Positions 21,448 through 32,045 of a stretch of 47,597 nt of DNA are shown piece after piece. A program made the translations under genes and the position numbers. Location: assembly GCA_944322695.1 (NCBI GenBank), contig CALUPQ010000047.1:1-47597 (forward strand), given 5' to 3'. Source of the stretch: an uncultured Mailhella sp. (GTDB lineage Bacteria > Desulfobacterota > Desulfovibrionia > Desulfovibrionales > Desulfovibrionaceae). The notes below the pieces were generated by a model. That model worked only from the letters and a program-made list of their open reading frames with translations. It was not told where the DNA came from and searched no databases. Every line of letters begins with the position of its first letter. The first letter of the stretch is position 1.

Positions 21448-22797
21448 ATGAACAAAAGCCCCGCCACTCTCACTCTGGAAAAAAGACGCGAGCAGCTCCA
21501 GCCCCACATTGTCCAGGTCAGTCCCAACGTCTGGGTTTCCGTGGCCGAAGACGTATCCAACGTGGCCATGATTCGCGGAAAGGACGGCCTCGTGCTTGTG
21601 GATACCGGCATGATTCCCGACAGAGCGGCAGTCACTCTGGAAGCCTTCCGGAACATTGCGCCCCTCGACCGCTATCCCATCAAGGCCATCATCTATACTC
21701 ACGGACACGGCGACCACACCGGCGGGTCTCCCGTCTTCTGCGCCGAAGGTTCAAAGCCGGAAATCTGGGCCAGAGACAATTTCGGTGCGGAAGTTCTTCC
21801 TTTCGAACGTGCGGGCCTCATGCCTCTGTTCAAGGCTCGCGGGGGAAAACAGGGAGGCTTTCTGCTTCCCCCGGAAAAGCGCATCTGCAACGGCATCTCA
21901 CCGGTACGCTATCCCCGCGCAGGCGGCGCCGTTTTCAGCGGTAAGACGGGCGCCGTTCTCCCCGACCATTTCTTCAGCGACGACGTCACCCTGGAAATTG
22001 CCGGACTGAAGCTGCATCTTTTCGCCACCCCGGGAGAAACCGACGACGCCCTCTCCGTATGGTTTCCCGAAGAGCGCGTGCTCTTCTGCGGCGATGACCT
22101 GTACCGTTCCTTTCCCAACGTCTATCCTGTACGGGGGACGGGCAACCGCGATATTCCCGCCTGGTGCTCCAGCCTGAAACGTCTCGAATCCCTGGATGCC
22201 GACGTGCTGGTTCCGGGGCATACCGACCCGTTCACGGGTAAGGACCATGTAAAGGAAGTGCTCACCAACTATCGCGAAGCGCTCGAGTACGTGTTCGACA
22301 AAACCATAGAGGGCATGAACGCAGGCAAAACGCCCGACGAACTTGCCCGTGAAGTCAGGCTGCCGGAACATCTCTCCTCCCTCGACTATCTTGAGGAAGC
22401 CTACGGCAACGTCTCCTGGACGGTGCGCAACATCTTCAACAGTCTCGTCGGATGGTTCGACGGCAACCCTCTCCATCTGGCAGAAGGAAACAGTCCCGAG
22501 AGGGAGGCACTACACATGGCAGCCCTTGCCGGCGGCGAAGAGGCTCTTTTCCGTCAGGCTCAGAACGCCCTCGCCCTGAAAGACGCGATATGGGCGGCCA
22601 GACTTGCCGACCATCTGCTCGCGCTGAAGCCTCGGCAAAAGGAGTATCTGACGCTCAAAGCCGATGCGCTGGAAATTCTTGCCGAAGAGATGCTGACCGC
22701 CACGGGCCGCAACTACACCTTCAGCGTGGCGCAGGAGTTGAGAAGTCGGGCGGAAAAGACCGCCACGAATCCTGAAGGACCCGTCGCCTCAGCATAG
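21448..22797 (+). CDS. Metallo-beta-lactamase-fold alkylsulfatase-like hydrolase
   Basis: Resembles the SdsA1/BDS1 sulfatase group, which cleaves sulfate from alkyl esters with a two-zinc centre. The 449-residue protein has metal ligands HGHGDH (His85, His87, Asp89, His90), later FPNVYPVRGTGNRD and VPGHTDP segments, and then a helical region (LEYVFDKTIEGMNAGKTPDEL) like the family's dimerisation domain. It ends with RNYTFSVAQELR and lacks the C-terminal sterol-carrier-like domain of SdsA1, so it is clearly shorter. No signal peptide is seen, suggesting a cytoplasmic location. ATG 21448 has GGAGG 5 bases upstream. Its neighbour across a terminator is an arylsulfotransferase/TRAP cluster, which fits sulfate-ester use, but the substrate is unknown. 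Confidence 0.8.
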   Translation: MNKSPATLTLEKRREQLQPHIVQVSPNVWVSVAEDVSNVAMIRGKDGLVLVDTGMIPDRAAVTLEAFRNIAPLDRYPIKAIIYTHGHGDHTGGSPVFCAEGSKPEIWARDNFGAEVLPFERAGLMPLFKARGGKQGGFLLPPEKRICNGISPVRYPRAGGAVFSGKTGAVLPDHFFSDDVTLEIAGLKLHLFATPGETDDALSVWFPEERVLFCGDDLYRSFPNVYPVRGTGNRDIPAWCSSLKRLESLDADVLVPGHTDPFTGKDHVKEVLTNYREALEYVFDKTIEGMNAGKTPDELAREVRLPEHLSSLDYLEEAYGNVSWTVRNIFNSLVGWFDGNPLHLAEGNSPEREALHMAALAGGEEALFRQAQNALALKDAIWAARLADHLLALKPRQKEYLTLKADALEILAEEMLTATGRNYTFSVAQELRSRAEKTATNPEGPVASA

Positions 22798-22947
22798 TGA
22801 CCCGACTTCTCGCCCGGCCAGTCATACGCAATCCGCTTTCCGGACGCCTGGCGACAAGGCATGACGGGCAGCAGGCCAGGCAAAGGTCGAAAAAATCCGC
22901 TCCCCTGCCCTGTTCCGACAAGGCTCCACTCACAGTAATGCCTTTTA

Positions 22948-22975
22948 GCCCCAGCCCCGCTGGGGCTTTTCTTAA
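22948..22975 (+). terminator. Terminator after the alkylsulfatase-like gene
   Basis: AGCCCCAGC (22948-22956), loop CCC, GCTGGGGCT (22960-22968), then TTTCTT. Confidence 0.85.
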
Positions 22976-22982
22976 ACGAAGA

Positions 22983-23011
22983 AGCGCGCCCGGAAACCGG
23001 ACGCGCTTTTT
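22983..23011 (+). terminator. Second hairpin between convergent genes
   Basis: AGCGCGCCCGG (22983-22993) with CCGGACGCGCT (22997-23007), one mismatch, then TTTT. It lies 34 bases beyond the arylsulfotransferase stop on the other strand and may also end that operon. Confidence 0.65.
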
Positions 23012-23044
23012 CAGGTCAGAGGACGGGGAGAATCCCGCTACGGC

Positions 23045-24493
23045 TTAGTCGTCGGTGGCGGCAATGCAGTCGCCGGCGTTGGCCACATAGCCGAGGGTGC
23101 CTTCCACTTCCACTTCGCTGCTGCGGCTGCCGAAAGCGGCGGCGCCGGGCATACGGAAGGTAGCGCAGTCGGCGGGAGCGATGGCCACTTCAGGCGTGTG
23201 CTGAGCCTGAGGCACCCATTCGTAGGGCACGCGGTAGGCACGGTACACCATGTTCATGTTGCGGCCGTCCTTGTAGGGGTTGATGAATTCCCACACAATC
23301 TGATGGTCGGCGGTCACTTCGAGCAGACGGCCGTCGGAGCCCTCGGTAATGAGGGTGTTGCCGTTGGGCAGACGCTGCGCGGCGCTGATGAAGGGGCTGT
23401 AGAAGCGGCTGGCATCCAGCGGCACAACGAAGCCGGCTTCGTGGGGAGTGTACTGCCACACAATCTTCAGAGTGATGGGGTCGAACTCCAGCACACGGGT
23501 GTAGTCGCGCTGGGCGGCCTTCACACCGATGGGCGCACCGGGGTTCGGGTTGTCGTAACCGGCCCAACCGCCGTTGTCAAACACAAGAATGTTGCCCGCA
23601 CCGGGAAGGCCGTCGGGAATCATGTGCGCATGGTGCTGACCGATAATCCAGCCGAGGGAATGCTCGGGATGGCCGATGCTGTAGTCGGGACCGACCTTCC
23701 AGACAATCTTGCCGGTTTCCTTGCTGATGATGAAGATGATGTTGGTTTCACGGCCGTCCATGATGATGTTGTCGGGATGGAAACGTTCGTCACCGGCATC
23801 ATACCACTTGTTGGGGCCGAGGGTGGACATGGAGTTGATGTGCATCCAGTCGCCGAGACCGGGAGCGCTGTCGATGAGGGAACCGCCGCGGTAGTTGGGG
23901 TTACGGGCCATGGCGTTGCGGGCGGCTTCGGAGAAGCCCATTTCCTCCACATGGTCGGAAGCCTGCCATTCCCAGATGATTTCGCCTTCCCAGTTCACTT
24001 CGTACACCACGTCGTCAAGCAGAGGCTTGTCGGAGATGTATTCGCAGTGAGCGTCGCGGTGGCAGAGCACGAGGGTGTTACCGGACATGGACTGAGGTTC
24101 GTGACCGGGAGCGTAGTAACCGGTGGTGCTGCCTTCACGCTGGAAGTCGTGATGCTGGCGGGCCATCCACTGGGGCTTTTCGCCCGGGTCCTCGATGAAT
24201 TCGGCCTGGTTGAATTCCCAGACCACGTTGCCGTCCCAGTCCACCTGAATGAGGTCGACCTGGTCCTGAAGGCCGTACTTGGGGTTACGAATGCCGCGGC
24301 TGCCGAGCAGATAACCGCCGGGGAAAATCTTGTTCGGGAAGCCGTGCACGCCCTTCCAGAGCTTGATTTCCTGGCCGTTCATGTCGATGAGCATGGCGCC
24401 CTGCCCTTTGACGGGCATGACGGTATAGCCGTTATACGCCCTTTCAGGGTCGTAGAGGGTAACACCGGTGGGGTAAACTGTAGGATGACCCAT
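23045..24493 (-). CDS. Arylsulfotransferase-family (ASST-like) beta-propeller protein
   Basis: ASST enzymes move sulfate from one phenolic ester to another through a sulfo-histidine intermediate. The 482-residue protein shows at least five propeller-blade repeats of the form 'V/E-x-D...IVW-x-F' (DWDGNVVWEF, NWEGEIIWEW, KETGKIVWKV, ITLKIVWQY, ADHQIVWEF). His-rich motifs typical of the active face are RQHHDF (114-115), GDWMHINSM (His218) and GQHHAHM (287-290). Known ASSTs are exported and periplasmic, but this protein begins MGHPTVYPTG with no signal peptide. AAGGAG stands 7 bases before the ATG. It is the last gene of a TRAP transporter operon, so its substrate probably enters through that transporter; the actual reaction is unproven. 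Confidence 0.85.
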   Translation of the reverse strand: MGHPTVYPTGVTLYDPERAYNGYTVMPVKGQGAMLIDMNGQEIKLWKGVHGFPNKIFPGGYLLGSRGIRNPKYGLQDQVDLIQVDWDGNVVWEFNQAEFIEDPGEKPQWMARQHHDFQREGSTTGYYAPGHEPQSMSGNTLVLCHRDAHCEYISDKPLLDDVVYEVNWEGEIIWEWQASDHVEEMGFSEAARNAMARNPNYRGGSLIDSAPGLGDWMHINSMSTLGPNKWYDAGDERFHPDNIIMDGRETNIIFIISKETGKIVWKVGPDYSIGHPEHSLGWIIGQHHAHMIPDGLPGAGNILVFDNGGWAGYDNPNPGAPIGVKAAQRDYTRVLEFDPITLKIVWQYTPHEAGFVVPLDASRFYSPFISAAQRLPNGNTLITEGSDGRLLEVTADHQIVWEFINPYKDGRNMNMVYRAYRVPYEWVPQAQHTPEVAIAPADCATFRMPGAAAFGSRSSEVEVEGTLGYVANAGDCIAATDD

Positions 24494-24562
24494 GATAAAA
24501 CTCCTTACATAAGAGTTAGGGGGAAAAGGCCCGAGGCCGAGGCCTCGGGGTGCAGGGAAAAC

Positions 24563-26476
24563 TTAGAGAATTTCCGGACCCATGAGGGTGTAGGGCAGCC
24601 AGAGGGCGATGTCCGGAATGATGGTGATGAGCACGACCGCAAGAATCATCAGACCCACGAAAGGCACGATGCCCTTGAAGATGGTCTCAATCGGGATGCC
24701 CTTGGCCACACCGGCAAGGGCGAACACCACCACGCCCACGGGAGGCGTAATCTGGCCCATTTCCATAATCATGACGGACACGACGCCGAACCACACGGGG
24801 TCGAAGCCGAGGGCCACGACGGTGGGGAAGATGGAGGGCAGGGTGAGCATGAGCATGGGGATAACGTTCATCATGCAGCCGAGGATGATGTAGATGACCA
24901 CGATGATGGCGAACACCCAGTAACGGTTGAACGGCAGGGAGACGATGAAGTCGGCCAGCAGGAAGGGAAGACGGGTGGCGGCGAAGAAGTAGCCGAGAAT
25001 GGCCACGCCCACCATGATGCCCATGATGCGGGCGGTGAGTTCACCGGTTTCATGCAGGGAGGCCAGCAGGTTCTGCTTGGTCACCTTGCGACGGGCGAGG
25101 GCGTAGAGGAAGGCGCCCATGGCGCCGATGCCGCCGCCTTCGTTGGGGGAGCAGATACCGGCCACGATGCTGCCCAGAACCAGCACGAACAGTGCGAGGA
25201 TGGGAAGCAGGCCCATGGAGGACTGAATCTTTTCGGCCAGAGTGTACTTGGGACCGCGGGGAGCGAGCTCAGGATGACGCACGGCCATGTAGTAGATGTA
25301 GCCCATGAACATGAGGGCCAGCATGATGCCGGGAATCAGGCCGGCCATGAACAGGCGGCCGATGGAAACTTCCGTGACGATACCGTAGATGATGAAGCCC
25401 GAGCTTGGCGGAATGAGGATGCCGAGCGTACCGCCGGCGGCCAGAGAGCCTGTGGCGAGGGAGGGCGAATACTTGAGGCGCATCATTTCCGGCAGGGACA
25501 CGGAGCCCATGGTCACGGCGGTGGAGAGGGAGTCGCCGCACACGGCAGCGAAGCCGGTGCAGCCGGCGACGCCGGCCATGCCCATGCCGCCGGGCATGTG
25601 GCCTATCCATTTATTGGCGGAGTTGAACAGGTCAACGGAAATGCCGGAGTAAAGAATCATGCAGCCCATGAGCACGAAGAGCGGCAGGGCCACAAGGTTG
25701 TAGTTGGCGGAAGCGGCGTAAGGCGTGGTGCCCACGGCGGCGAGAGCGGCGATAACGTTACGGGACACGGCCACCATGCCCATGGCACCGATGATGCTCA
25801 TGGCCCAGGCGATGGGCATGCGGATGAACAGGAAGAGGAACAGCAGGCCGAACGCTATGAGGCCGAGGAAAAGATTGGAAATTTCGTAGGGGCTTTCACG
25901 ATACCAGAAAGGCAGGTAGGCAAGAGCGAAAGCGAAGGCGACACCGAGCACGAAGGGAATGTAGTGACCGGAACCGAGGCACTTGATGCTTTCGCGCACG
26001 AACTGGAACAAGGCCACGAAGGCGGTGAGGCAGAGGCCCACCACGGGCATCCAGTAATAGAATTCCAGAGGAACATAAAGCTCCATGGACTGGGTGCCGA
26101 ACTTGCTCAGGAATGCATCGTAGCTTTCAAAAGTAAGCAGAACCATGACGCCGAGCACCAGAGAGGAGACCGTCATGTCGCACCAGCGCTTCATTCCCTT
26201 GGACATGCGCTCGTAGATGAAGTCAATCATCATATGGCGGTCTTGCAACTGCAGCAGCGCCATGAAGGAGAAGGTCGTGAGCGCAAGAAGGTTTTCCTGC
26301 AATTCCAGCGAACCGGGAACGCTGAAACCGAACAGGCGGCAGCAGACGTCCACGGTGATGAGCACCGGCAGAATGGCCATGGCCGCGTAGCTCAGCCAGC
26401 TCACCTTGGTGGTGAATTTGTCAAGAAAGTCATAGACGCGCTGTAAAGCGGGAGAAAGGGAAACTTGTTCTGCCAT
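24563..26476 (-). CDS. TRAP transporter fused permease (DctQ-DctM)
   Basis: Inner-membrane part of a tripartite ATP-independent periplasmic transporter, which uses an ion gradient to import organic anions delivered by a DctP protein. The 637-residue protein fuses the small DctQ subunit (about residues 1-175, four hydrophobic segments including LQDRHMMIDFIYERM) to the large DctM subunit (about a dozen segments; GMAGVAGCTGFAAVCGDS and the GTLGILIPPSSGFIIYG scoop motif). GAGG precedes the ATG. It lies 69 bases before the arylsulfotransferase and 116 bases after the nearer dctP, in one operon. Confidence 0.93.
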   Translation of the reverse strand: MAEQVSLSPALQRVYDFLDKFTTKVSWLSYAAMAILPVLITVDVCCRLFGFSVPGSLELQENLLALTTFSFMALLQLQDRHMMIDFIYERMSKGMKRWCDMTVSSLVLGVMVLLTFESYDAFLSKFGTQSMELYVPLEFYYWMPVVGLCLTAFVALFQFVRESIKCLGSGHYIPFVLGVAFAFALAYLPFWYRESPYEISNLFLGLIAFGLLFLFLFIRMPIAWAMSIIGAMGMVAVSRNVIAALAAVGTTPYAASANYNLVALPLFVLMGCMILYSGISVDLFNSANKWIGHMPGGMGMAGVAGCTGFAAVCGDSLSTAVTMGSVSLPEMMRLKYSPSLATGSLAAGGTLGILIPPSSGFIIYGIVTEVSIGRLFMAGLIPGIMLALMFMGYIYYMAVRHPELAPRGPKYTLAEKIQSSMGLLPILALFVLVLGSIVAGICSPNEGGGIGAMGAFLYALARRKVTKQNLLASLHETGELTARIMGIMVGVAILGYFFAATRLPFLLADFIVSLPFNRYWVFAIIVVIYIILGCMMNVIPMLMLTLPSIFPTVVALGFDPVWFGVVSVMIMEMGQITPPVGVVVFALAGVAKGIPIETIFKGIVPFVGLMILAVVLITIIPDIALWLPYTLMGPEIL

Positions 26477-26592
26477 GGAAACCTCGGCTTTTCACGGTTC
26501 GCACCCGAGCGAACCGCACAGAAAAGGATACGCCAAAAAACTCTACCTGATAATGAAGGAGGGAGGGGCAGAGACACCCCTCCCTCTACATA

Positions 26593-27666
26593 TTACATCT
26601 TATAGTCGCCGTACTTACCGGCTCTCATCTCTTCGGTGTAGAACTTGGAACGTTCCTGAGCATACTTGTACACGGCGTCGATGACTTCAGGCTTCGCGCC
26701 TTCGCAGGACTCCTTCCAGTCTTCCACGAAGTGGCCGAGAGGAGCGAGGAAGGGAGCACGTTCTTCATCGGTCAGATAATAGAAGGTGTGGCCCTGAGCT
26801 TCCATCCAGGCGGTATCTTCCATGGCGCCGTCTTCAAGGGACTTGCCAACGCCGAGAGCCATTTCCATGCCGCCGGTCTGCTTCAGGTAGCTCTTCATGT
26901 CGTCAGGCATAGCGTCCCACAAATCCTTGTTGGCTTCCATGGTGAAGGCCTGCACCATGATGTTGAGCATGAGGTGATGCTTGGTGGCTTCGGTAATCTT
27001 GTAGGACTTGAGGGGAGCGAGGGGGCAGATGACGCCGTCACCCATGCCCTTGGACAGGGCGAGGTAGGTGTCGGGAGAGGTCATGCGGATGGGGTTGGCG
27101 CCGAGAGCCTTCACGAGTTCAAGCGCGACGGCGTCCCACACGATAATCTTCTTGCCCTTCAGCTCTTCCATGGTCTTGACGGGCTTGATGGTGTGCAGCT
27201 GATAAGCGGCGGAAGCCCAGGAAGTGAAGTGTTCGCTGTTCGCAGGAAGTTCGGCACGAACTTCGGGGAACTTCTGAATGAGGTCCTCAAGCACCAGGGA
27301 ACCGATGATGGCGTTGGGGCACATGCCGGGGATGGCGATGACGTTCATCAGGTTGTACTTGCCGGGATACACGGCGGGACGAATCACACCGAAGTCCACG
27401 CGGCCGTCGGTGATGGCCTGGGGCGCTTCGGATTCAGGATACAGAGCGTTGGTGGCAAAATAGTCAAACGACAGCTTGCCGCCGAACTTTTCTTCCGTAG
27501 CCTTGAAATAGGGTTGCCAGTAGTTAACCACGGTGGGATGCTTTTCAAGGTAGCTGCCCATGAAGGACAGATGCTTGAACCCCTTGGCAGCCATGGCCGT
27601 GCCGGACAGGGCCAGCATGCCGCCTACGGCGAGAGCAACCGCCAGAACACCAAATTTTTTCAACAT
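26593..27666 (-). CDS. TRAP transporter substrate-binding protein, copy 1
   Basis: Periplasmic DctP-type receptor that captures the ligand and hands it to the membrane subunits. Its 357 residues begin with a clear signal peptide (MLKKFGVLAVALAVGG... ending AMA before AKGF). The mature part has family landmarks: ITDGRVDFG, GLCL-type region PGMCPNAIIG, the ELKGKKIIVWD strand-turn where family members carry the carboxylate-binding region, and SPDTYLALSKGMGDG. AAGGAG lies 7 bases upstream. It is close to copy 2 over its whole length (roughly 70 percent identical by eye). Being adjacent to the permease, it is probably the main receptor for it. Confidence 0.93.
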   Translation of the reverse strand: MLKKFGVLAVALAVGGMLALSGTAMAAKGFKHLSFMGSYLEKHPTVVNYWQPYFKATEEKFGGKLSFDYFATNALYPESEAPQAITDGRVDFGVIRPAVYPGKYNLMNVIAIPGMCPNAIIGSLVLEDLIQKFPEVRAELPANSEHFTSWASAAYQLHTIKPVKTMEELKGKKIIVWDAVALELVKALGANPIRMTSPDTYLALSKGMGDGVICPLAPLKSYKITEATKHHLMLNIMVQAFTMEANKDLWDAMPDDMKSYLKQTGGMEMALGVGKSLEDGAMEDTAWMEAQGHTFYYLTDEERAPFLAPLGHFVEDWKESCEGAKPEVIDAVYKYAQERSKFYTEEMRAGKYGDYKM

Positions 27667-27753
27667 ATCCAGCTCCTTCGATGTGAAAAATAGCCTTTGC
27701 CTCCATCGGAAACCCTTCCGATGAATGACACCTGAGCCTCATTCAATAGAGTC

Positions 27754-27783
27754 TTAGTAAAATAAATATCAAGGTTAAGTCAA
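27754..27783 (-). promoter_or_regulatory. Possible promoter of the dctP1-dctQM-arylsulfotransferase operon
   Basis: On the minus strand, TTGACT (27783-27778), then TACTAA (27759-27754) after 18 bases, in an AT-rich interval between the terminator of copy 2 and the start of copy 1. Confidence 0.4.
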
Positions 27784-27855
27784 CAGGAAAAAGTTTTTTG
27801 CAACATTAACTAGCTGAAATAATTGTACTAAAAATATATTTCCCCTTTTAGAAGA

Positions 27856-27891
27856 CAAGAAAAGGGCCCGGCCGCAAATACGGTCGAGCCC
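27856..27891 (-). terminator. Terminator after dctP copy 2
   Basis: On the minus strand, GGGCTCGACCG, loop TATTTG, CGGCCGGGCCC, then TTTTCTT; the stem has two mismatches. It begins 16 bases past the stop of copy 2 and isolates that gene from the operon downstream. Confidence 0.75.
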
Positions 27892-27906
27892 GATAAAGGA
27901 ACAAAA

Positions 27907-28983
27907 CTAGATTTTGTAGTCGCCGTAGACGCCGGCACGAACCTGTTCCGTATAGAACTTGCTGCGCTCACGGGCGAAGGAGAGCACTTCCTCCACCAGC
28001 TTGGGGTCCATGTCCTTGCAGTCCACCTTTTCCCAGGTTTCCGCAAACGAAGCGAGCGGAGCGAGAATGGCGGCTCTCTCCTCATCGGTCAGATAATGGA
28101 AGGTGTGGCCCTGGGCTTCCATCCAGGCGGTGTCTTCCTTGGCGCCGTCTTCGAGGGACTTGCCGCAGGCTTCGGCCATCTTGAGGCCGCCTTCCTGCGT
28201 GAGCCAGGCGCGCATGTCATCGGGCAAGGAGTCCCACAAGTCCTTGTTGGCTTCCAGCGAGAAGGTGTTGACGCCGAGGTTCAGGATGAGGTGATGCTTG
28301 GTGGATTCGGTAATCTTGTAGGAACGAAGAGGAGCCAGCGGACAAAGCACGCCGTCCGCCATGCCCTTGGACAGGGCGAGATAGGTATCGGGAGAGCTCA
28401 TGCGGATGGGGTTGGCGCCGAGCGCCTTCACGAATTCAAGGGTCGTGGCGTCCCATACGATAATCTTCTTGCCCTTAAGTTCCTGAGCGTTGCGGATGGG
28501 TTTTATGGAGTGAATCTGATATGCGGCCGAAGCCCAGGACGTGAAGTGAACGGAATTCGGAGGAAATTCGGCGCGCACTTCGGGGAACTTCTGGATGATT
28601 TCTTCCGCCACGAGGCTGCCCACAATGGCGTTGGGGCACATGCCGGGAAGAGCCACGACACCGAGAAGATTCATCTTGCCCGGAAAGAGCGCAGGCCGCA
28701 CTTCACCGATGTCCACGCGACCGTCAGTCACGGCGTTGAAGGATTCGGATTCGGGATACAGCGCATTGGTGGAGAAATAGTCAAACGACAGTTGTCCGTT
28801 GAACTGCTTCTCCGCGGCCTCGATGAACGGCTTGAACACGTTCACCGTGGTGGGATGCTTTTCCATGTAGCCGCCCATGAAGGACAGATGCTTGAACCCC
28901 TTGGCAGCTACGGCTTCTCCGGAAAAGGTCAGCATCCCGCCCAGAGCAAGAATCAACGCCAGAGCTCCGAATTTTTTAAGCAT
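27907..28983 (-). CDS. TRAP transporter substrate-binding protein, copy 2
   Basis: A second DctP-type receptor of 358 residues. It has a signal peptide (MLKKFGALALILALGG... ending AVA before AKGF) and the same landmarks as copy 1 (VTDGRVDIG, PGMCPNAIVG, ELKGKKIIVWD, SPDTYLALSKGMADG, MEAQGHTFHYLTDEE). Differences cluster in the first 60 mature residues and in the last third, so ligand range may differ. ATG 28983 is preferred over a GTG three codons upstream because AAGAG then lies at a normal distance. It has its own strong promoter and terminator, so it can be made independently of the permease. Confidence 0.92.
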   Translation of the reverse strand: MLKKFGALALILALGGMLTFSGEAVAAKGFKHLSFMGGYMEKHPTTVNVFKPFIEAAEKQFNGQLSFDYFSTNALYPESESFNAVTDGRVDIGEVRPALFPGKMNLLGVVALPGMCPNAIVGSLVAEEIIQKFPEVRAEFPPNSVHFTSWASAAYQIHSIKPIRNAQELKGKKIIVWDATTLEFVKALGANPIRMSSPDTYLALSKGMADGVLCPLAPLRSYKITESTKHHLILNLGVNTFSLEANKDLWDSLPDDMRAWLTQEGGLKMAEACGKSLEDGAKEDTAWMEAQGHTFHYLTDEERAAILAPLASFAETWEKVDCKDMDPKLVEEVLSFARERSKFYTEQVRAGVYGDYKI

Positions 28984-29062
28984 ACGCAGCACTCTTTTTG
29001 TGAAATTTCTATCACGCCATTTTTCAACAAAACGCCCAGCAGAAATTTTCTCTGCTTATCCT

Positions 29063-29092
29063 TTTATAGTAGGGAATAATTCCTTGCGTCAA
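29063..29092 (-). promoter_or_regulatory. Promoter of dctP copy 2 with an embedded palindrome
   Basis: On the minus strand, TTGACG (29092-29087) and TATAAA (29068-29063), 18 bases apart. The spacer contains the palindrome GGAA-TTA-TTCC (29083-29073), placed where a bound repressor would block RNA polymerase. Confidence 0.6.
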
Positions 29093-30077: not shown

Positions 30078-32045
30078 ATGAAACATTTCCCCGCCTGTCT
30101 TCTGTCAGCCCTGCTCGTATGCTTTTTTCTCTCCGCCTGCGCAGTGAAAACGACGCCTTCTGCTGACGACCGCCCTCTCAGAGCCGGGCCGGCCTATGTC
30201 CAGTGGCTGGAGGAGCAGGCATGCCTGCGAAAAGCCCCAAAACTCACCGCCATCGTCAGCGGTTCCTCCATAAGCTGGCGATACGGCTCCCAAACATCCC
30301 TGCTTCCGGAGGACGCAAGGGTATGGCTCCGTCTTTCCCCGACGCTTACGGCATGGGCGGGACAGAATTCCTTTCTGAACGCTCTTGCCGACAAAAACAT
30401 GGCGGAAACGCTGCGAGCGCTCGGCATCCACGGGCTTTTTCTTTCCGGCTGCTCGGACACGGGAGACGAATGGGCCGGGGCATCTCCGATTTCCAGTCTG
30501 GGAGAAGACGGGACAAGCCTGTCCTTTGGGAGAACGACCGGCAAAAAAGAAGAACATGCCCGCCTTCTGGAAACGCTTTCGCGCGCGAATGTTCTGGCGG
30601 GAGGAACCCTGCTTCCCGCCCATACGGGCATGGGGCCGGACTTCTTTCTCGCTCTGCGCGCGGTAAGAGATTACCCGGGGCTTTACGCCATGACCGAAGT
30701 GCCGCAGGAATGCTGGCCCCTCCTTCCTTCTTTAAAAGAAGACGGCGTGGCCGCCCTTTCGTCCGACGAAGCCGCGGCCCTGCTCGTCAGAGGGGTGCTG
30801 CCTGCCCCTCTGGTACAGGACGCGCCCCGCTTTTCCCCCGTTCCGCGCGGATGGGCCGCCACAGGTCCGGTAGCCGGGGTGGACGGCGTAAAACGGCGCT
30901 GGCTCTACCGCTGGTATGAAAAGCCCGACAGACCCGTATTGCACTGGGACGACCCTTCCGGCACGGCAAGGCGCATTCTCGAAGCCTCTCTCATCCAGAA
31001 CGTCGGTCTCCGCCACGAGGTCCTCGTCGGGCTTCACGCCGCGGCATGGCTGGGACTGGAACCGATATCTTCCAGCGGGCCTTCTTCGGCGGACCATGGA
31101 TTCGAGCCCGGCCTGTCCGCCCTGCACGAACTTGCGCGCAGCGCCCACCGCTACGGAGCCGCCCTGCTCCTGATGGACGACCAGCCCGTGGAACGGCTGG
31201 CCCTGCTGCAACGGGCAGGAGCGGACTTCTCCTTCGACAGCGTGCTCTCGCCCGCGCTGGAGCGCTCCCTTCTGGAAGGGAATGCCGAAGCCGTGCAGAA
31301 AAGCCTGCGCCGCTCCCTCAGGCTCGGAGTCTCCCATGCCGCCCTGTGGAGAGGCACGGCCGACGGTCTTCCCCGGCCCTCTCTGGCGACGCTGCTTCCC
31401 CTCATTCCCGAAGGATGGCAAAAGCTCGTTCTCCTCCCGGGAGAATCCCCTTCCGATATGCGCATAAACGCTCCCACCCTTGCGGCCATGGCCTGCGGTC
31501 TTGCCCCGGGAGCAAGGCCGAAAACGGAAAAGCTCGCCGCCATCCGCAGCGCGCACATGCTTCAGCTCGCTACCCGGGCCTTTCTGCCGGGCCTGCTCAT
31601 GCTTTCCGGCGCCGACCTCGACGGTTCTCTGCCCGAAGGGAAGGACTGGCCCGCCACGCCTCCGCTCTGGCAGCTCTCCTCCCGTCCATCGGGCAGACAT
31701 GGTCTGCCTTCCGGGCTGGCCATGTACCGTCTGCCGGGAAACGGCGTGGAAGAATTGCTGGAACGCATGCTCGCCTCCCGGGCGAACTGCCGCATCGCAA
31801 CGGGTGAGCTCATCGACGTACCTTCCTGCGGGGAAAAAAGCGTGCTCATCACGGTCTCGCGCCTGCCGGACGGAGCATCGCTGGCATTCTTCGGCAACTT
31901 TTCCGGCGGCAGCGTCACCTTTACTCCCCGCTTTTCCCTCTGGATGAACGCATCGTCCAGAATCGACGTTCTTTCCGAGAACGCCCTCCCCTCCGGCGCC
32001 ATGACGCTGCCGGAGTGGGGGTGGAAGGCCGTGCTGCTGCGCTGA
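30078..32045 (+). CDS. Large lipoprotein of unknown function
   Basis: A 655-residue secreted protein with a type II signal peptide: MKHFPACLLSALLVCFFLSAC, with lipobox LSAC and lipidated Cys21. I do not recognise the family with certainty. The order of segments (an N-terminal barrel-like region, a long helical middle, and a C-terminal beta-rich part starting near VLITVSRLPDG and containing LAFFGNFSGGSVTF) vaguely recalls GH13 alpha-amylase-like proteins, but I cannot point to a complete set of catalytic Asp/Glu residues, so that link is only a guess. A weak TAGGA-type ribosome binding site precedes the ATG. The next gene downstream is a membrane glycosyltransferase, so a cell-envelope role is plausible. 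Confidence 0.8.
   Translation: MKHFPACLLSALLVCFFLSACAVKTTPSADDRPLRAGPAYVQWLEEQACLRKAPKLTAIVSGSSISWRYGSQTSLLPEDARVWLRLSPTLTAWAGQNSFLNALADKNMAETLRALGIHGLFLSGCSDTGDEWAGASPISSLGEDGTSLSFGRTTGKKEEHARLLETLSRANVLAGGTLLPAHTGMGPDFFLALRAVRDYPGLYAMTEVPQECWPLLPSLKEDGVAALSSDEAAALLVRGVLPAPLVQDAPRFSPVPRGWAATGPVAGVDGVKRRWLYRWYEKPDRPVLHWDDPSGTARRILEASLIQNVGLRHEVLVGLHAAAWLGLEPISSSGPSSADHGFEPGLSALHELARSAHRYGAALLLMDDQPVERLALLQRAGADFSFDSVLSPALERSLLEGNAEAVQKSLRRSLRLGVSHAALWRGTADGLPRPSLATLLPLIPEGWQKLVLLPGESPSDMRINAPTLAAMACGLAPGARPKTEKLAAIRSAHMLQLATRAFLPGLLMLSGADLDGSLPEGKDWPATPPLWQLSSRPSGRHGLPSGLAMYRLPGNGVEELLERMLASRANCRIATGELIDVPSCGEKSVLITVSRLPDGASLAFFGNFSGGSVTFTPRFSLWMNASSRIDVLSENALPSGAMTLPEWGWKAVLLR

Follow-up and report, generated by a model that had tools for sequence, protein, structure and literature searches.

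What is the task of an arylsulfotransferase-family protein (ASST) encoded behind a TRAP transporter in a bacterium of the genus Mailhella? We addressed this question for a contig of an uncultured Mailhella sp. (GenBank assembly GCA_944322695.1, contig CALUPQ010000047.1), whose full length of 47,597 nucleotides is hereafter called the window. The analyses suggest, with a probability that we estimate at about one half, that imported sulfate esters are reductively cleaved by this enzyme, coupled to thiols, to yield sulfite for DsrAB.

The arylsulfotransferase and its tail cysteine

The window ASST matches PF05935 (Arylsulfotrans) with a score of 80.5 bits, the curated cut-off being 24.2. Its gene and the codons of the residues discussed below are as follows.

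23045-24493, minus strand: most likely cytosolic ASST of 482 residues, the core enzyme (PF05935, 1.6e-22)
24149-24151, minus strand: codon of His115, equivalent to His252 of AssT by a match of the HHD motif only; invariant in 42/42 aligned branch sequences
23840-23842, minus strand: codon of His218, equivalent to AssT His356 (hhalign; 42/42)
23750-23752, minus strand: codon of Arg248, equivalent to AssT Arg374 (hhalign; 42/42)
23633-23635, minus strand: codon of His287, equivalent to AssT His436, the sulfated histidine (hhalign; 42/42)
23066-23068, minus strand: codon of Cys476 in the C-terminal tail (42/42)

A scan of named genomes returned 346 relatives, and the best 80 of them, which were retained, are 59-99% identical to the window ASST over near-full length. 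They are found in Thermodesulfobacteriota, Bacillota, Fusobacteriota, Actinomycetota, Chlorobiota, Myxococcota and one Pseudomonadota metagenome-assembled genome (MAG). Carriers available in culture include Desulforamulus aeronauticus DSM 10349, Moorella sulfitireducens and Desulfosporosinus. The highest identity, 99%, is to the ASST of an uncultured Desulfovibrionaceae MAG, and MAGs named Mailhella reach 97%. The branch proteins are ~480 residues long and share the start motif MG(H)PT.YPTG, with no leader; hence, judging from its sequence, the window ASST is most likely cytosolic. It has no match to PF17425, the immunoglobulin-like N-terminal domain that, together with a signal peptide, characterizes the periplasmic AssT subgroup.

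An AlphaFold2 model of the window ASST has a confidence score (predicted local distance difference test, pLDDT) of 86.3, low only at both ends and at residues 204-208. The closest solved folds identified with Foldseek are Cpz4 (4e-17) and Escherichia coli AssT (3ELQ, 3ETS and 4P05; 5e-11 to 7e-10). All four AssT active-site residues are invariant in the aligned branch sequences. The activity expected of this family would be sulfuryl transfer independent of 3'-phosphoadenosine 5'-phosphosulfate (PAPS).

No cysteine other than Cys476 is invariant in the 42 sequences. Cys476 is located seven residues before the C-terminus, in a tail whose pLDDT is under 50 on either side of it. A tail cysteine is found in 93/93 full-length branch members vs 1/41 other PF05935 proteins of the mapped loci. 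The 93 are what remains of 98 clustered frames after removal of three leader-bearing paralogs and two members truncated by contig ends, and a few of them are near-copies (91 distinct of 95). The pattern was sought in the last 25 residues of the 41 proteins, some of them truncated, and in a slightly wider stretch for the 93 because some of their tails are longer.

Thiol redox partners of the branch

A thiol partner, i.e. a glutaredoxin-like protein, the lipoyl carrier GcvH, lipoamide dehydrogenase (Lpd), thioredoxin or thioredoxin reductase (TrxB), is encoded within 6 kb of the ASST gene, or a thioredoxin is fused to the ASST, in 44/86 loci; the TrxB matches in this count include cross-matches to Lpd. 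In a set of 94 clustered loci that includes some duplicates, glutaredoxin-like proteins occur in 41, GcvH in 23 and Lpd in 21. All these partners keep their redox motifs: CxRC in the glutaredoxin-like proteins (41/41), the lipoyl motif ESxK (23/23) and CxxxxC in Lpd (21/21). In Desulforamulus aeronauticus and a Desulfotomaculum MAG (loci L101 and L104), the genes form an uninterrupted run coding for GcvH, the glutaredoxin-like protein, the ASST, Lpd, LipB and LipA.

The link is also found in three natural ASST-thioredoxin fusions, two from Cetobacterium and one from Vagococcus (PF00085, 7e-14, 3e-10 and 6e-21). Their thioredoxin domain directly follows the tail cysteine, and a TrxB gene adjoins the fusion genes. 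On a tree of 84 branch members, pairing with thioredoxin requires six changes, five of them forced by well-supported branches, and pairing with the glutaredoxin/lipoyl module requires 12, of which 10 are forced. Thus, the thiol pairing was gained or lost many times.

The window's own genome codes for a glutaredoxin-like protein, Lpd and GcvH in an operon on another contig (G000:C20:3033-5903), and the glutaredoxin-like protein is encoded in 15/19 Mailhella genomes. One Mailhella MAG (L082) has the genes for the glutaredoxin-like protein, GcvH and Lpd directly beside its TRAP-ASST operon. Across the order (248 genomes), the ASST branch is present in 46 genomes, the glutaredoxin-like protein in 44 and both in 43 (p = 2e-43 by genome and 8e-8 by genus); the genus-level figure is the safer one, since genomes within a genus do not count as independent. 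The only carrier of the glutaredoxin-like protein outside the ASST set, genome G036, has a partial ASST match with 65% identity. Across the phylum (296 genomes), all 10 carriers of the full-length glutaredoxin-like protein are among the 12 ASST carriers, and three further weak matches cover its second domain only. Altogether, the coupling of the ASST branch to thiol redox is well supported.

The glutaredoxin-like protein is composed of 276 residues, and its structural model has a pLDDT of 95.6. Its first domain is NrdH-redoxin-like, and the second resembles part of a radical S-adenosylmethionine barrel, with a weak NrdG2 match. In the copy of the window's own genome (L178:3033-3863), no CxxxCxxC cluster motif was seen.

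Mailhella also has a second, longer cytosolic ASST (PF17425 plus PF05935), 26% identical to the window ASST. It was found at 11 loci in 10 genomes (Mailhella and genome G026; L039:7899-10210, L192-L198 and L200-L202), in operons with thioredoxin and mostly TrxB. A thioredoxin gene adjoins it in 10 loci, with TrxB also in eight, and the contig of the eleventh begins inside the gene. The window's own genome has such an ASST-thioredoxin pair on contig C87. More generally, PF05935 is expanded in these bacteria, with matches at 11 places in the draft genome of the window (G000, contigs C20, C23, C61, C81, C87, C91, C157 and C181) and as many as 25 in one sister genome; further sites are L059-L061 and L078. 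Many of these proteins are leader-bearing and encoded in tandem, and some of the genes adjoin those of small secreted HHH_3 proteins or of other importers (TAXI-TRAP, SLC13 and NhaC).

Sulfur genotype of Mailhella and genes around the arylsulfotransferase

It had been proposed that the cell would capture the sulfate of imported esters. The genotype of the genus led us to reject this as the main role. The ATP-sulfurylase Sat was found in 0/19 Mailhella genomes, by TIGR00339 and by PF01747, and the same PF01747 search was positive in 35/40 other relatives. AprA above the cut-off was likewise found in 0/19, and DsrA had a match in 14/19, above the cut-off in 12. By genotype, Mailhella would therefore be respirers of sulfite, not of sulfate. 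Freed sulfate needs activation prior to reduction, and on the basis of these gene searches, in which CysDN-type activation was not included, respiration in Mailhella would seem to have no use for free sulfate. According to the accessible part of one study, Mailhella respires sulfite that is produced intracellularly from sulfonates (PMC13219744), and in the related Taurinivorans the absence of Sat is described as consistent with inability to respire sulfate (PMC10507020, accessible part). The AprA model also gave matches below its cut-off in Mailhella (G000-G018); these constitute a large family of fumarate-reductase-like flavoproteins, with 10 in the genome of the window and as many as 19 scored in sisters.

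The other genes and signals of the locus are listed below.

21448-22797, plus strand: alkylsulfatase-like metallo-hydrolase of 449 residues, a patchy neighbour devoid of the C-terminal domain (PF00753, Lactamase_B, 2e-25; PF14863, Alkyl_sulf_dimr, 1.6e-34)
Residue 85 of this hydrolase, plus strand: HGHGDH sequence motif
22947-22967, plus strand, and 22982-23008, minus strand: a pair of convergent, terminator-like hairpins separating the two units (hairpin search)
24563-26476, minus strand: fused TRAP permease DctQM (DctM 1.9e-88, DctQ 1.2e-16)
26593-27666, minus strand: TRAP binding protein DctP-1 (PF03480, 1.7e-28)
27907-28992, minus strand: TRAP binding protein DctP-2, encoded at the head of the operon (PF03480, 1.2e-30)

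Translation and profile scans confirmed all genes of the predicted arrangement, namely, a hydrolase lying tail to tail with an operon that codes, in this order, for DctP-2, DctP-1 (70% identical to each other), DctQM and the ASST (28992-23045, minus strand). The operon had been taken to start at 29092; its first gene begins at 28992 (or 28956). The intergenic gap of 247 bp (22798-23044) has one terminator-like hairpin per strand. Such hairpins are no commoner in the whole region than in shuffled sequences (eight found vs 9.3 +/- 3.0 expected); hence, those of the gap are supported by their placement only. A strong terminator-like hairpin also lies between the DctP-1 and DctQM genes (26559-26586, minus strand) and could allow an excess of the binding proteins. 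Further along the window, a gene at 30078-32045 (plus strand) codes for a 655-residue protein with a lipoprotein-like N-terminus; its TreS_stutzeri match of 136.8 bits is far under the cut-off of 719.4.

We examined how constant this neighbourhood is in nine syntenic Mailhella loci, in which the ASST gene lies beside an RNase J gene (the window, L048, L049, L063-L066, L068 and L075). The hydrolase is present in six of them, and DctQM was called in six, being missing from L048, L065 and L066. The direct linkage of the original prediction thus holds as adjacency in the window, but it is not fixed. The only case seen of the hydrolase adjoining the ASST outside Mailhella is in Desulfosporosinus (L140). 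We considered the hydrolase as the core of the system and rejected this possibility, as it is absent from three of the nine loci. It has the metallo-beta-lactamase and dimerization domains of the SdsA1/YjcS alkylsulfatase family without the C-terminal third domain: no further Pfam domain was matched in it, and its alignments with YjcS, SdsA1 and sec-alkylsulfatase in the PDB stop at about residue 507-530 of 633-668, which indicates that the last domain is missing.

An anion importer is encoded within 4.5 kb of the ASST gene in 75/86 branch loci. The importers belong to the SLC13 (24), ABC (18), TRAP (17), Tct (9), MFS (5), SLC13-like (4) and NhaC (2) types. That the importer varies and the enzyme is constant is as expected if the substrates differ while the chemistry stays the same. 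Of the organosulfate import island that had been predicted, the link between importer and ASST is retained, but the hydrolase is only a patchy neighbour. We also attempted to deduce the ligand from relatives of the DctP proteins, but the nearest solved ones (4n6d, 4p56, 4nap and 4pgn) are distant; the reportedly indole-type ligands of 4nap, 4pgn and 4pgp were given no weight.

Other genes were seen near single branch members. In Ruminiclostridium hungatei (L144) and a Chlorobiaceae MAG (L154), genes of the NifH and nitrogenase component 1 types adjoin the ASST gene, and a BioB-like protein was recognized by eye near it. In Bacillus wudalianchiensis, a gene of the TauE/SafE sulfite-exporter family (L134:806-1750, 1.4e-43) lies upstream of the ASST-ABC operon. 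No sulfite reductase or glycine-cleavage genes were recognized among the identified branch neighbours, many neighbours being unidentified.

A candidate route from sulfate esters to sulfite

From these observations, we infer an ester substrate, a thiol acceptor of the sulfuryl group, sulfite as the product and an order of electron carriers, as follows. Through the TRAP transporter, an organic sulfate ester would enter the cytoplasm, where the ASST would take up the sulfuryl group on His287, as E. coli AssT does on His436. The group would then pass to a thiol, not to a phenol, most likely to Cys476 on the mobile tail or else directly to a partner protein. A dithiol would resolve the resulting S-sulfonate to sulfite and a disulfide. 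The dithiol system of Mailhella would consist of the 276-residue glutaredoxin-like protein, a lipoylated GcvH-like carrier and Lpd, and that of other bacteria of thioredoxin and TrxB. Sulfite would be passed on to DsrAB. The net reaction would be R-O-SO3(-) + NADH -> ROH + sulfite, without ATP or Sat/Apr, much as PAPS reductase works but with an ester in the place of its donor. The potentials are -516 mV for sulfate/sulfite and about -290 mV for lipoamide. By our own estimate from these values, the reaction would balance at standard state if hydrolysis of the ester had an energy near -44 kJ/mol, a requirement that would favour aryl esters.

Several observations argue against this route. No thiol partner is encoded nearby in 42/86 loci, including all the SsuABC-type Paenibacillus and Clostridium loci except L136, and genomes G011, G423 and G363 have the ASST without the glutaredoxin-like protein. 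The partner GcvH and Lpd proteins score as ordinary glycine-cleavage H protein and lipoamide dehydrogenase. No DsrA was found in the draft genome of the window (77% complete), and Sat is present in several ASST carriers (G046, G058 and G053), so that the need for the ASST path is not limited to bacteria without Sat. The main doubt is that the partners could serve maintenance, given that periplasmic AssT is co-encoded with the thiol enzymes DsbL/DsbI for its folding (PMC13426309, accessible part of the review). The ASST might then be an ordinary sulfuryl shuttle from aryl sulfates to phenols or alcohols in the cytoplasm, like AssT and Cpz4, with thiol partners that keep its cysteines reduced or aid folding, as DsbL/DsbI do in the opposite direction. 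Its complete AssT-type active site and the known non-catalytic role of thiol enzymes beside periplasmic ASST genes fit this explanation. However, a lipoyl carrier accompanied by LipA and LipB would be an odd maintenance system, a single invariant cysteine leaves no conserved disulfide to look after, and a shuttle yields no sulfite for a sulfite respirer devoid of Sat. We consider such a shuttle unlikely, albeit a serious contender.

Other explanations appear improbable. Imported esters might be hydrolysed by the alkylsulfatase-like enzyme or by the ASST, with free sulfate serving as an electron acceptor or sulfur source. The hydrolase adjoining the operon speaks for this possibility, but the absence of Sat and of AprA above the cut-off and the loci without the hydrolase speak against it, although assimilation is still possible as CysDN was not searched, and the thiol partners would be left unexplained. 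A slim chance must also be given to a thiosulfonate, an S-sulfonate (R-S-SO3) or another oxyanion being the substrate that the propeller handles and the dithiol system reduces to sulfite and a thiol. The importers of the branch are broad anion carriers and dithiols are natural reductants of S-sulfonates, but a reaction of S-sulfonates with thiols needs no AssT-type histidine set, and yet this set is invariant. It is similarly improbable that the propeller has abandoned sulfuryl chemistry for another lipoyl-linked pathway, such as glycine or one-carbon metabolism. GcvH and Lpd do score above their usual family cut-offs, and the nitrogenase-like genes near two members might point in this direction. 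However, the AssT active site is fully conserved, thioredoxin substitutes for the lipoyl module, and a sulfite-exporter-type gene lies upstream of one member. No GcvP or GcvT was recognized in the mapped operons, in which some neighbours are unidentified, and no genome-wide search was made.

The conserved active site, the cysteine in the tail, the exchangeable dithiol systems, the thioredoxin fusions and the absence of Sat are accommodated with the least strain by reductive cleavage of the ester. A wider proposal is that organosulfate respiration constitutes a third entry into dissimilatory sulfite reduction, with a swinging cysteine tail that delivers to a glutaredoxin/lipoyl or thioredoxin relay, with ATP being saved, and with a role common to the two cytosolic ASST branches across several phyla. 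This remains tentative, and we would give it rather less than even odds. The physiological role of bacterial arylsulfotransferases is called poorly understood in the part of a 2026 review available to us (PMC13426309). The dithiol link makes it concretely testable, as sulfite should be formed from an aryl sulfate when the partners are provided. If the proposal is true, gut bacteria unable to use sulfate would be able to form hydrogen sulfide directly from sulfate esters of the host and the diet, an ATP-free counterpart to PAPS reduction would exist, and the purpose of many bacterial arylsulfotransferases would be explained. A full-text literature search of partial coverage found no paper that describes this ASST branch or its thiol coupling.

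Among known systems, CysH, the reductase of PAPS or adenosine 5'-phosphosulfate, resembles the proposed route in its chemistry. It transfers the sulfuryl group to a cysteine of its C-terminal region, and a dithiol, thioredoxin or glutaredoxin, resolves the adduct to sulfite. The window ASST would work like CysH without being a member of its family, as CysH has an unrelated fold and its donor is a phosphosulfate made with ATP, in contrast with the proposed ester. The closest solved fold is that of Streptomyces Cpz4 (9KF4 and 9KF6), a PAPS-independent enzyme of caprazamycin synthesis and of similar length, for which we know of no thiol partner. Cpz4 has only 19% identity with the window ASST over the fold alignment, and it sulfates an antibiotic (PMC13426309, accessible part). 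AssT of E. coli CFT073 (3ELQ, 3ETS and 4P05) shares the propeller fold and the four active-site residues, but it is periplasmic, with an N-terminal Ig-like domain and DsbL/DsbI as partners, according to the same part of that review. In contrast, the window ASST has no leader and no Ig-like domain but has a C-terminal cysteine tail, and its reducing partners are encoded elsewhere in the genome. Sutterella wadsworthensis also shows a large ASST expansion in a gut bacterium, with 17 members; however, 16/17 have signal peptides, and the neighbourhood table in the accessible part of that paper names no dithiol reductant (PMC10932419). Finally, the sulfite-lyases IslA and HpsG of Bilophila and Mailhella, which act on isethionate and 2,3-dihydroxypropane-1-sulfonate, similarly supply DsrAB with intracellular sulfite from imported organosulfur compounds (PMC13219744, accessible part). 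They are glycyl radical enzymes that cleave the C-S bond of sulfonates, whereas the window ASST would take part in a reductive cleavage of the S-O bond of an ester.

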